Of a DNA stretch of 64,000 nt, positions 13,294-56,392 are shown piece after piece (the stretch's first letter is position 1; each line of letters opens with the position of its first letter). The notes below the pieces were generated by a model, which was given only the letters and a program-made list of their open reading frames with translations, did no database searches and had not been told where the DNA came from. The position numbers and the translations under genes were made by a program. The DNA is taken from contig NZ_JAFBIO010000008.1 of NCBI RefSeq assembly GCF_021531255.1, positions 1 through 64,000 of the forward strand, given 5' to 3'. Origin of the DNA: Allofournierella massiliensis (GTDB lineage: Bacteria > Bacillota > Clostridia > Oscillospirales > Ruminococcaceae).

Positions 13294-14799
13294 TTACTTT
13301 TTGGCGCTGCCGTCCCCCTTGCCCAGGCGCACCTTCTTGCCGGGCGCCTCCGCGGGCAGGCTGAAACTGAACCGGCACCATTCGCCCTCCTGGCTCTCGG
13401 CCCAGATCTTGCCGCCGGAAAGGCTGACCAGCACCTTGCAGATATGCAGGCCCAGGCCGCTGCCCCGCACATTGAGGCCGCGGCTCTTGTCCTCCTTATA
13501 GAACCGGTCAAATACAAAGGGCAGGGCCTCCTTGGCAATGCCCGCGCCGCTGTTCCAGACGCTGATGATCACCCTGCCCCCGTTTTTCTGCACCCCAAAG
13601 CGGATGATTCCGCCTTCCGGGGTGAATTTCAGGGCATTGTCCACCAGATTGGAGAGCACTTGATGTACCAGGTCCGGGTCGGCATAGACCATGACCGGGT
13701 CCGGTGCCAGGCCCTCGATCTGCACCTTTCCGTCCTCGATCCGCTTTTCGGCGGCAAAGACCACCCCGGTGATGGTGTTCCAGATATCATACTGCCGGGC
13801 ATCGGCCTTGTACTCGCCGGCTTCCAGCTTGGTGATGTCCAGCATGTTCTGGATCAGCCGGGTCAGCCGTCCCGCTTCCTGGCTCACCAGTTCCAGATAA
13901 TGGGAATAGAGTTCCGGCGGGATGGTGCCGTCTATCATGCCGTCCACAAAGCCCTTGATGCTGGTCATGGGAGTGCGCAGCTCATGGGCGATATTGCCCA
14001 TAAACTGGCTGCGGGAGGAATCGGCCGCCTCCAGGTTCCGGGCCATGGTGTTGAAGGTATCGGCCAATTGGCTGATCTCTTCACAGGATTTGTCGGCCGG
14101 GGCCCGGGCGGAAAAATCCCCGCTGCCAAAACGGCGGGCCGCCTCGGCGATATGCCGCAGAGGCTGGGTGAGCCGGCCGGTGATCACAATGCTCAGGATG
14201 CTGGCCAGCAGCAGCATCAGGCCTGCCGACAGGATGAAGGAGGAGAAGATATCCCCCATATAGCTGGCCAGGCCGGCGGCGCTGCTGGAGGCGATCACAT
14301 AGCCCACCACCTGGTTTTCCCGGCCGTAAGCCGCCTTGCCGGCGGTATAGTACCGGTCGGTCAGCACGCCGTCCAGGTCTCCGATGGCAAAATACCCGTC
14401 CCGGGTATCCATGGCAGCCAGACAATCTGCCGGCACGGCCTTACCCTTTACCAGGATGCTCCGGTTGGAACAGAGGATCACATTCCCCTCGGTATCCAGA
14501 AGGGTGAGCACCACGCTGGAGGAGGAACCGATCAGCTCCACCCGCTGCTCGATCTGGTCGGCGATCTCGCCGTCCAGCTGCAATTCATCCACCGTGTCGG
14601 GGGTATCGGTGCGCAGCAGCAGCTGCATGGACTGGGCCACCGCCAGGTTTACCGCGTCGGTAAGGGCCTGCTGGCGCTCGGCATGGAAATAGCGCACCGT
14701 GAACACCATCTGGGCGGTGCCCATGATGAAGATGCCGATCAGCAGGATGGTGGCAATGGCATTGAACACCAGGGTGCTGATGCTGCGCTGCTTTTCCAT
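13294..14799 (-). CDS. Two-component sensor histidine kinase (PhoR/ResE-like)
   Basis: 501 residues. TM1 at about 10-34, an extracytoplasmic sensor domain of roughly 150 residues, TM2 at about 187-208, then HAMP. The HisKA motif NIAHELRTPMTSIKGF puts the phosphorylated His at about 272. The HATPase domain shows the N box (LSNLVDNALKFT) and the G boxes (NSGAGI, GSGLGL). It is a complete bifunctional kinase. The start is 7 bp after the stop of the response regulator, with AAGGA overlapping that stop. The sensed signal is unknown. The presence of htrA nearby hints at envelope stress (inference). Confidence 0.93.
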   Translation of the reverse strand: MEKQRSISTLVFNAIATILLIGIFIMGTAQMVFTVRYFHAERQQALTDAVNLAVAQSMQLLLRTDTPDTVDELQLDGEIADQIEQRVELIGSSSSVVLTLLDTEGNVILCSNRSILVKGKAVPADCLAAMDTRDGYFAIGDLDGVLTDRYYTAGKAAYGRENQVVGYVIASSSAAGLASYMGDIFSSFILSAGLMLLLASILSIVITGRLTQPLRHIAEAARRFGSGDFSARAPADKSCEEISQLADTFNTMARNLEAADSSRSQFMGNIAHELRTPMTSIKGFVDGMIDGTIPPELYSHYLELVSQEAGRLTRLIQNMLDITKLEAGEYKADARQYDIWNTITGVVFAAEKRIEDGKVQIEGLAPDPVMVYADPDLVHQVLSNLVDNALKFTPEGGIIRFGVQKNGGRVIISVWNSGAGIAKEALPFVFDRFYKEDKSRGLNVRGSGLGLHICKVLVSLSGGKIWAESQEGEWCRFSFSLPAEAPGKKVRLGKGDGSAKK

Positions 14800-14806
14800 G
14801 GTTTTC

Positions 14807-15496
14807 TCAGTCCTTCACTTCAAACTTGTAGCCCACGCCCCACACCGTTTTCAGGCTCCACTGGTCGCTGGCGCCTTCCAGTTTTTCCCGCAGGCGCTTG
14901 ATGTGTACGTCGATGGTGCGGGAATCCCCATAGTACTCAAAGCCCCACACCTCGTCCAGCAGCTGGTCCCGGGTGAACACCCGGTTGGGGTGGCTGGCCA
15001 GAAAGCTCAGCAGTTCCAGCTCCTTGGGGGGTGCATCCACCACCTTGTCCTTCACCTTCAGCTCATACCGGGACATATCCACGCTCAGGTTGTCGTAACG
15101 GATAATGCCGTCCCGGTTTTCCTCCCCGGCGCTGCAGCGGCGCAGCACCGCCTTGATGCGGGCCACCACCTCCTTGGCGTCGAAGGGCTTGACCACATAG
15201 TCATCTGCCCCCAGCTCCAGGCCCAGCACCTTATCAAAGGTTTCGCCCTTGGCGGTAAGCATGATCACCGGGGTATCCCCCGCGGCCCGGATGCGGCGGC
15301 AGACCTCCCAGCCGTCCATCTTGGGCATCATCACATCCAGCAGCACCAGGTCGGGGTGCTGCTGCTCAAAGGTATCCACCGCGGCCTGACCGTCGTGGGC
15401 AAGGCTGATCTGATAGCCTTCCTTATTCAGATACAGGCGAAGCAGTTCACAGATATTTTTATCATCATCCACAATCAGGATCTTCTCGTTGGCCAT
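14807..15496 (-). CDS. OmpR/PhoB-family response regulator
   Basis: 229 residues. The receiver domain has the acidic pocket VDDD and the phosphorylated Asp54 in LVLLDVMMPKMDG, with Lys in VKPF. The C-terminal winged helix has the OmpR pattern LTxxELxLLxxL (here PPKELELLSFLASHPNRVFTR) and the DVHIKRLREKLE recognition helix. Such proteins bind direct repeats spaced by about 11 bp, which is the pattern seen upstream of htrA and of the candidate RNA near 56.1 kb. A minus-strand -10 TATAAT lies at 15566-15561. It is the first gene of the operon with the kinase. Confidence 0.95.
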   Translation of the reverse strand: MANEKILIVDDDKNICELLRLYLNKEGYQISLAHDGQAAVDTFEQQHPDLVLLDVMMPKMDGWEVCRRIRAAGDTPVIMLTAKGETFDKVLGLELGADDYVVKPFDAKEVVARIKAVLRRCSAGEENRDGIIRYDNLSVDMSRYELKVKDKVVDAPPKELELLSFLASHPNRVFTRDQLLDEVWGFEYYGDSRTIDVHIKRLREKLEGASDQWSLKTVWGVGYKFEVKD

Positions 15497-16634: not shown

Positions 16635-16688
16635 TTCACATTTTCTTCACCCTGCCACTATCCTCTTTTCACAATTAGCCGGTACAAT
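16635..16688 (+). promoter_or_regulatory. htrA promoter P2 with phased TTCACA operator repeats
   Basis: TTCACA at 16635, TTCACC at 16646 (11 bp apart) and TTCACA at 16668 (22 bp further). A -10 TACAAT is at 16683-16688 and there is no consensus -35. The first two repeats start 48 and 37 bp before the -10, exactly as at 56024-56077. The pattern fits a PhoB/OmpR-type activator site. Confidence 0.65.
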
Positions 16689-16769: not shown

Positions 16770-18095
16770 ATGGAAAATAAATGGGAATATAATTACGAAA
16801 ATCTCCATACCGATCGCCCCGGCGATACCAGCACCTACTCCACCGATGCCGCCTGCGGATATCAGCCCGCGCCGGTTTCCGCCGGTCCTGCCAGCGGCCC
16901 GGCCGGCGGCGGCCCCGGCGGCCCCGCAGGCCCCCAGAACGGCGAACCCGCCCCTGCGCCTGCTCCCCAGCCCTCCGGGCACAAAAACCACGGCGGCAAG
17001 AAATGGCTGACCCGGGCGCTCTGCCTGGTTCTGGTGGCTGCGGTAGGTTTTGCCGGCGGCGTGGCGGGCTCCCGCTTTGCGGGCGGCTCCAACCGGGTGA
17101 TCTACCAGAGCGTGAACCGGGGCGACGCCTCCTCTTCCGAGGGCAGCGTGCCGGAAGGTGAAGCCATGAACACCAAGCAGGTGGCCAGCCTGGTCGCCCC
17201 CAGCGTGGTGGTCATCACCACCGAGGAAGTGGTCACCAGCAACTACTGGTTCGGCGGCCAATATGTGGAAAGCGGCGCCGGCAGCGGCGTGATCATGACT
17301 GAGGACGGCTATATTCTCACCTGCGCCCACGTGGTCAGCGGCGCTTCCTCCATCACGGTTACCCTGACCGACGGCACCGAGTACCCTGCCACCCTGGTGG
17401 GGGCCGACAGCCAGAGCGACATTGCGGTGATCAAGGTGGAAGCCACCGGCCTGACCCCCGCCGTGATGGGCGACAGCGACGCCCTTGCCGTGGGTGAGGA
17501 CGTGGTGGCCGTGGGCAACCCCCTGGGTGAATTGGGCGGCACCGTTACCAACGGCATTGTCAGCGCCCTGAACCGGGAGATCGAGGTCAACTCCTCCACC
17601 ATGAGCGTGATCCAGACCAACGCGGCAGTCAGCCCCGGCAACTCCGGCGGCGGCCTGTTTAATGCGGCCGGCGAGCTGATCGGCATCGTGAACGCCAAAT
17701 CCACCGGCGATTACGCCGAGGGCCTGGGCTTCGCGATCCCCATCAACACGGCTCTTCCCGTGGCGCAGGATCTGATTGAAAACGGTTATGTCACCGGCCG
17801 GCCCGCCCTGGGCGTGACCGTGCTGACCATCAGCGACGCCCAGACTGCCGCCCAGTACGGCGTGAGCAACTACGGCGTATATATCATTGAAGTCAACGCG
17901 GGCAGCGGTGCCGAGGCGGCCGGGCTGCAGGCGGGCGATATGTTCGTCAGCGTGGACAACACGGTGGTCTCCTCCACTGCGGAGCTCACCGACATCATCA
18001 GCCAGCACCAGGTGGGCGACGTGCTCAGCGTGCAGATCAGCCGCGACCGGCAGCTGCTCACCGTGGACGTGACCCTGGGTGAAAGCGCCTCCTGA
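16770..18095 (+). CDS. htrA: HtrA/DegP-like serine protease with PDZ domain
   Basis: 441 residues. A Pro/Gly/Ala-rich cytoplasmic region of about 75 residues precedes one membrane helix (about 79-100). The S1C protease domain follows with His187 (LTCAHVV), Asp217 (SQSDIAVIKV) and Ser292 (SPGNSGGGLF), then a single C-terminal PDZ domain (from about 340). It is a membrane-anchored quality-control protease acting outside the membrane. It is driven by a promoter with phased TTCACA repeats, probably under a two-component regulator such as the one 1.3 kb away. The ATG is preceded by AAAGGAATG. It ends with a strong hairpin at 18140. Confidence 0.93.
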   Translation: MENKWEYNYENLHTDRPGDTSTYSTDAACGYQPAPVSAGPASGPAGGGPGGPAGPQNGEPAPAPAPQPSGHKNHGGKKWLTRALCLVLVAAVGFAGGVAGSRFAGGSNRVIYQSVNRGDASSSEGSVPEGEAMNTKQVASLVAPSVVVITTEEVVTSNYWFGGQYVESGAGSGVIMTEDGYILTCAHVVSGASSITVTLTDGTEYPATLVGADSQSDIAVIKVEATGLTPAVMGDSDALAVGEDVVAVGNPLGELGGTVTNGIVSALNREIEVNSSTMSVIQTNAAVSPGNSGGGLFNAAGELIGIVNAKSTGDYAEGLGFAIPINTALPVAQDLIENGYVTGRPALGVTVLTISDAQTAAQYGVSNYGVYIIEVNAGSGAEAAGLQAGDMFVSVDNTVVSSTAELTDIISQHQVGDVLSVQISRDRQLLTVDVTLGESAS

Positions 18096-56023: not shown

Positions 56024-56077
56024 TTCACAGATTGTTCACAGCACTTTAAAGAAATACACGCATCTTGCTTCTATACT
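56024..56077 (+). promoter_or_regulatory. Promoter of a candidate small RNA with phased TTCACA repeats
   Basis: TTCACA at 56024 and TTCACA at 56035 (11 bp apart), then TTAAAG in register at 56046. -10 TATACT at 56072-56077, no consensus -35. The distances of 48 and 37 bp to the -10 are identical to those at htrA. Confidence 0.7.
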
Positions 56078-56083
56078 ATAAGC

Positions 56084-56193
56084 ACAGAGCAAGGGAGCCG
56101 CAACCTTTGTTTCTGTACATGATTCCTCCTCACACCAAAGCGATACCCCAACAAAAGAAAGCGCCCCTGTACCGCAAGCAGGGGCGCTTTTCC
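56084..56193 (+). ncRNA. Candidate regulated small RNA (about 110 nt)
   Basis: Starts 7 bp after a clear -10 and ends in a terminator (56158-56191: AAAGCGCCCCTG/CAGGGGCGC, then TTTTCC). The RNA is mostly unstructured before the terminator and shows ATTCCTCCTCACACC (56122-56136), complementary to Shine-Dalgarno sequences. No convincing ORF with a ribosome site on this strand. On the minus strand a 14-codon frame (56119-56075) has a Shine-Dalgarno, so the anti-SD could partly mirror that. Confidence 0.55.
56158..56191 (+). terminator. Terminator of the 56.1-kb RNA unit
   Basis: 12-bp G/C-rich stem, 9-nt loop, TTTT. Confidence 0.88.
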
Positions 56194-56262
56194 TTTGCCT
56201 TTTTATTTGTGCAGGGTGTTCGGGTTTGCAGGCAAAAAAACAGAAGGGGTAAACTTATGAAA

Positions 56263-56310
56263 AAAGCCCGGGCAAAACCCGGGCTTTCGGAACGGAACGC
56301 AGTCCGTTCC
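56263..56310 (-). terminator. Hairpins after the tRNA gene, with terminator
   Basis: On the minus strand after the tRNA come GGAACGG/CCGTTCC (56310-56289), then AAAGCCCGGG/CCCGGGCTTT (56287-56263) ending in TTTTTT. Confidence 0.85.
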
Positions 56311-56315
56311 CATCA

Positions 56316-56392
56316 TGGTGGGCCAGGCAGGACTTGAACCCGCGGCCAAGCGGTTATGAGCCGCCAGCTCTGACCAGCTGAGCTACTGGCCC
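56316..56392 (-). tRNA. tRNA with CAT anticodon (elongator Met or Ile2)
   Basis: 77 nt including encoded CCA, read on the minus strand. The acceptor GGGCCAG pairs with CTGGCCC. The D-stem GCTC/GAGC and T-stem GCGGG/CCTGC are formed. The anticodon loop is CTCATAA (anticodon CAT) on a GGCGG/CCGCT stem. The 5' base pairs normally, so it is not an initiator. The variable-loop context CTTGGCCGC resembles tRNA-Ile2 (lysidine-modified) as much as elongator Met. Which it is needs the sequence set of the genome. Confidence 0.9.

Follow-up and report, generated by a model that had tools for sequence, protein, structure and literature searches.

The enterobacterial small RNAs (sRNAs) of the sigma-E, Cpx and Rcs responses (MicA, RybB and CpxQ) depend on Hfq and have outer-membrane proteins as their targets, and the LhrC RNAs of Listeria monocytogenes are roughly 110 nt in length. 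LhrC1-5 need the LisRK envelope-stress two-component system and block Shine-Dalgarno (SD) sites through C-rich single-stranded motifs, and an anti-SD C-rich seed with UCCC motifs is likewise found in RsaE/RoxS, FsrA and other C-rich Firmicute sRNAs (PMC4132741). In the CssRS regulon of Bacillus subtilis (htrA, htrB), the CssR box reads TTTTCACA and htrA lies under tandem boxes upstream of its promoter (PMC6749698). Searching the literature, we found neither a paper describing an sRNA under CssR nor a regulatory sRNA of such kind described for Faecalibacterium, Gemmiger and their relatives.

Here we analyze a locus within a 64,000-nucleotide stretch of DNA from Allofournierella massiliensis (the window), for which the original prediction had proposed a small RNA controlled like htrA. 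We put at about two in three the probability that the locus encodes a trans-acting sRNA of ~110 nt that belongs to the HtrA envelope/secretion-stress regulon and represses translation by pairing through its linker. LhrC may be regarded as its nearest working analogue, given the similar size (~110 nt), the C-rich anti-SD single-stranded region, the presence of two copies in some of the genomes studied here, and a possibly related mode of control, with an htrA/hsp20-type operator and a two-component regulator that is here only putative. LhrC, however, carries three UCCC sites, whereas the present RNA has one linker, CAUnAUUCCUCCUCA, with CCUCCUC, and loops with CCGCA, and it lacks an Rfam match to any family. 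RsaE/RoxS and FsrA are alike in their C-rich anti-SD seed but differ in control, and Rfam matched the present RNA to them in neither sequence nor structure. The CssRS system is resembled in that tandem boxes akin to TTTTCACA precede the htrA promoter, with the core TTCACA/TTTACA in common (the octamers read AATTCACA and TGTTCACA at the window's sRNA and TTTTCACA at htrA); it differs in that hsp20 shares the promoter design here. As with MicA, RybB and CpxQ, an envelope-stress regulator would make an sRNA that lowers envelope-protein synthesis beside a quality-control protease, but the RNAs and regulators are unrelated and outer-membrane protein targets are missing in this Gram-positive family.

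Structure and conservation of the predicted sRNA gene

The predicted gene occupies positions 56084-56193 of the plus strand, its start being placed from the -10 element, and is matched at 56083-56196 (E = 6.6e-24) by a covariance model, R1, that we built from six close homologues of the sRNA. The individual elements named in the original prediction, namely the twin TTCACA operator, the -10 element, the terminator, the anti-SD stretch and a 14-codon minus-strand frame with SD and ATG, were all found in place. With its own promoter and an intrinsic terminator, the locus is, as judged from its predicted parts, built as in the trans-encoded class of small regulatory RNAs. The 111-nt RNA has a predicted folding energy of -38.6 kcal/mol (z = -4.5 against dinucleotide shuffles, 0 of 200 of which fold as well) and consists of a 5′ hairpin (56084-56116), a long unpaired linker and an intrinsic terminator (56157-56191) with a 14-pair stem, a T-rich tail and a loop with CCGCAAG. 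The linker, CAUGAUUCCUCCUCACACCAAAGCGAUACCCC (56118-56149), is the antisense of an SD-spacer-AUG sequence, near-invariant in 50 homologues and the proposed pairing region; it holds the anti-SD stretch ATTCCTCCTCACACC (56122-56136), which is single-stranded in the predicted fold. CCGCAA is common to the loop of the 5′ hairpin (AGCCGCAA, 56096-56103) and that of the terminator (CCGCAAG, 56173-56178) and is kept in many relatives; it may represent a protein site or a second seed.

A first DNA search of 61 genomes revealed close homologues in several genera. Among 297 genomes of the same family, R1 matches were present in 51, representing 22 of 126 genera (E <= 0.01; a few of them weak); across the order, 394 sampled genomes yielded just a single weak hit outside this family. 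Named genomes were examined by a pattern scan and then with the covariance model. Strong members occur in Faecalibacterium (F. prausnitzii ATCC 27768, F. longum, F. hattorii and F. gallinarum), Gemmiger, Ruthenibacterium, Fournierella, Anaerofilum, Pygmaiobacter and Subdoligranulum, which assigns the sRNA family to the Faecalibacterium/Gemmiger group of Ruminococcaceae. The culturable F. prausnitzii ATCC 27768 has a copy at L167:51-165. In several Faecalibacterium-type genomes, namely F. longum (L147), Faecalibacterium sp. I4-1-79 (L210) and genome G194 (L087), two copies lie some 2-7 kb apart, the second differing in its linker ends.

In an alignment of 50 sRNA copies, which was fitted to the model and is thus biased towards structure, 94.8% of cells are paired over the three helices sampled, every one of the 18 pairs has changed on both sides, and the score for covariation is 0.74, as compared to 0.22 for shuffled controls and no more than 0.15 when the structure is slid. 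Pairs of the terminator stem are kept in 99.8% of cells, with both sides changed at every pair. Despite the model-fitted alignment, the slid controls and the raw sequences leave little doubt on the predicted structure. The most conserved stretch is the nearly invariant linker core CAUnAUUCCUCCUCA, after which CACCAAA and AUACCCC usually come, and UUCCUCCUCA is unpaired with a mean probability of 0.78 over 49 homologues. In the 5′ loop CCGCA hardly varies, and it is found again in the loops of many terminators.

A small peptide could in principle be the product, read either from the 14-codon minus-strand frame (56076-56120) or from a plus-strand frame starting MIPPHTKAIP, and such a reading would account for the conservation of the minus-strand SD and ATG at a fixed spacing as well as for the identical codons with which the plus-strand frame opens in most members. 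The minus-strand frame, however, ranges from 1 to 39 codons and shifts its reading frame between relatives, and we judge that it is not a gene. On the plus strand, the statement that the unit contains no open reading frame has to be qualified, as a mechanical call returns a 90-codon frame at 56065-56337, but its ATG has no Shine-Dalgarno site and is lost in the divergent copies L096 and L097, and indels break the frame in relatives. Moreover, the conservation is explained by base-pair covariation, and promoter and terminator both point to the plus strand. With neither frame conserved, both peptides were rejected and the main counter-argument raised beforehand falls; we consider a peptide product extremely unlikely. 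The call for an sRNA rather than a peptide is thus upheld by covarying hairpins, a near-invariant unpaired linker, and a promoter and terminator present in dozens of genomes: in comparative terms the RNA structure of the locus is conserved and no reading frame is, and the evidence for an sRNA unit beyond chance is very strong.

The intergenic position and the terminator at its end would also suit a cis-acting leader, attenuator or riboswitch of a neighboring gene. Yet the neighbors and their orientation differ between genera: the flanks feature birA in the window's genus and in genomes g20, g82 and g105, a NERD-domain membrane protein in g9, g18, g25 and others, a yfcE phosphodiesterase, and other genes elsewhere. 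In the window itself, the first gene downstream of the unit is a tRNA encoded on the other strand. The original prediction suggested searching relatives for the unit upstream of the tRNA; this link to the tRNA is not general, as among the relatives checked tRNA-Met adjoins the unit only within the same genus. Such varying flanks argue against the leader of one particular gene, to which we give a very slim chance, and show a unit kept together with its promoter and terminator; by its genomic context, the predicted sRNA is a stand-alone gene.

None of the Rfam 15 covariance models identified a family at gathering score, LhrC being absent even among permissive matches, and our literature search, by sequence or by topic, returned no earlier description, while a 2021 human-microbiome screen with thousands of candidate structured RNAs (PMC8040213) might include it. 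Judged by Rfam 15 and the literature searched, the sRNA therefore appears to represent a family not described before, with a mechanism that would be of a known kind.

A promoter design in common with htrA and hsp20

Tandem repeats in fixed helical phase with the -10 element and without a -35 element are the design of activated OmpR-family promoters. Upstream of the sRNA, the twin operator TTCACA-GATTG-TTCACA (56024-56040, plus strand), an OmpR-family/CssR-like direct repeat with an 11-bp period, is the sole exact match to TTCACA-N5-TTCACA within the window, and the 2.53-Mb genome contains 2 exact matches and, with at most one mismatch, 17 matches as compared to 4 for the reversed control pattern. 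Extra degenerate half-sites follow at +22 (TTAAAG) and +33 (CACGCA) from the box start (56046-56062), and the -10 element TATACT (56072-56077) has no -35 hexamer. This geometry is strictly kept: the distance from the start of a TTYACA-N5-TTCAYA box to the -10 element is exactly 48 bp in 47 of 48 distinct sRNA promoters, again without a -35 element and with box scores far above those of shuffles, a further degenerate half-site is often seen at +22, and NNC(A/G/T)CA stands at +33 in 29 of the 48.

The window's htrA (16770-18095, plus strand), a serine protease gene with a PDZ domain (HtrA by both NCBIfam and Pfam) that box comparison indicates to be coregulated, has a promoter at 16635-16688 in which the box TTCACATTTTCTTCACC (16635-16651) precedes the -10 element TACAAT (at 16683) by the same 48 bp. 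As a minor qualification of the proposed match between the two operators, the htrA box differs from the twin repeat by one mismatch. The 48-bp spacing is found in ten htrA promoters, including that of the window, from this and other genera, and in two hsp20 promoters, one of them from the window's genome (L041, G000:C55:19560; L117, G020:C1:907135), so that the regulon would reach a cytoplasmic chaperone. Genes sharing the box in this geometry encode protein-quality-control functions. Since the box and its 48-bp spacing are identical in the promoters of the sRNA, htrA and hsp20 throughout many genera, the predicted control of the sRNA in common with htrA is well supported, and the 48-bp rule delimits a regulon recognizable in genome sequences.

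Two further genes carry related upstream sequences. A twin TTCACA box precedes the -10 element of a cyclophilin-type lipoprotein gene (L133, G188:C1:678748) by 49 bp, and this gene is likely a further member of the regulon; a homologous aldo/keto-reductase-like gene has, in two genera (L115, G082:C48:22036; L122, G031:C1:137617), a twin TTCACA box upstream of a putative long-spacer promoter.

Firmicute PhoP boxes are likewise TT-rich direct repeats with an 11-bp period, and on this general likeness in repeat type and period the operator could be a phosphate box that places the RNA in a phosphate-starvation rather than an envelope-stress regulon. The box sharers argue otherwise, being htrA and hsp20 in the 48-bp geometry and the cyclophilin-type lipoprotein gene at 49 bp, and the pstS upstream region of the window's genome, inspected by eye, has no clear box of such form. 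We therefore regard control by PhoP as very unlikely. The regulator of the sRNA, htrA and hsp20 boxes is probably an OmpR/CssR-type response regulator.

The window's genome has 13 Trans_reg_C matches, with only weak boxes upstream of regulators. An OmpR-type response regulator and a histidine kinase are encoded near htrA (13294-15496, minus strand), where the regulator promoter contains a weak TTCGCA-N5-TTTATA repeat. This response regulator was rejected as the one acting on the sRNA and htrA, as it is not beside htrA in eight relatives, in which the usual htrA neighbor is a methyltransferase-like gene. Another regulator gene, at G000:C1:15638, has TTTCACA upstream and offers a lead for a candidate.

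The exposed linker and its possible targets

In the mechanism that we propose, envelope or protein-folding stress would lead a phosphorylated OmpR/CssR-type response regulator to bind the repeats and recruit RNA polymerase. The transcript would fold into the 5′ hairpin and the terminator with CAUnAUUCCUCCUCACACC held open between them, and the linker would pair with target mRNAs over their Shine-Dalgarno region and start codon, keep ribosomes from binding and so reduce the output of selected proteins, probably exported ones, while misfolded proteins are handled by HtrA and Hsp20. Because the linker core matches SD-spacer-AUG exactly in antisense, a block of translation initiation is the natural reading, and the combination of an htrA-like promoter with an exposed, strictly conserved anti-ribosome-binding-site (anti-RBS) sequence probably denotes an undescribed stress-induced translation-blocking RNA. 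If true, the secretion-stress response around htrA would gain an RNA arm in Faecalibacterium, Gemmiger and their relatives, which are abundant human gut commensals, and the strictly conserved anti-SD/anti-AUG linker makes the specificity of C-rich Firmicute sRNAs directly testable.

Target prediction at ribosome sites had been suggested as a check; in an energy scan of 455 sites from a single genome, that of the window (~0.86 Mb, about a third of it), no target rose above shuffled controls that keep the UUCCUCCUC core. The best matches, a histidine kinase (C44:12310) and two membrane proteins resembling MBOAT acyltransferases, likewise do not exceed the core-preserving shuffles, and the lean of predicted targets to membrane or exported products is weak (p = 0.02, uncorrected) and absent for secreted proteins alone. 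Near-complete antisense sites in 14 genomes are almost only the sRNA loci themselves, and in 12 genomes the genes whose ribosome sites carry TGAGGAGGA have mixed functions with few recurrent orthologues. Since no target stands above controls, the selective repression of envelope proteins is suggested by analogy. Of the three parts of the original prediction, the sRNA and its control in common with htrA have comparative support, and the third, the repression of selected mRNAs via ribosome-site pairing, is plausible.

The invariant core CAUnAUUCCUCCUCA is the antisense of SD-spacer-AUG and of little else, and the RNA could therefore serve as a broad envelope-stress brake on many mRNAs with strong SD sites, or else act on one mRNA that matches the whole ribosome-binding site, rather than on a few chosen targets, a possibility that we consider real though unlikely. 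Alternatively, the stress-induced RNA might act mainly on a protein or on ribosomes as a sponge or decoy and not via mRNA pairing, with contacts made by the AGCCGCAA and CCGCAAG loops or by GGA at the hairpin. The near-constant CCGCA of the 5′ loop, its reappearance in many terminator loops and the energy scan, in which no target stood out, would fit such a role, but it is the unpaired anti-SD/anti-AUG linker that is the most conserved element, and we deem a sponge or decoy quite doubtful relative to repression by linker pairing.

A single case of longer complementarity was observed at L405 (G020:C1:1838171 region): the gene after a response regulator is a possible target, its ribosome site containing GGTATCGCTTT, which is perfectly antisense over 11 bases to AAAGCGAUACC, a conserved part of the linker.
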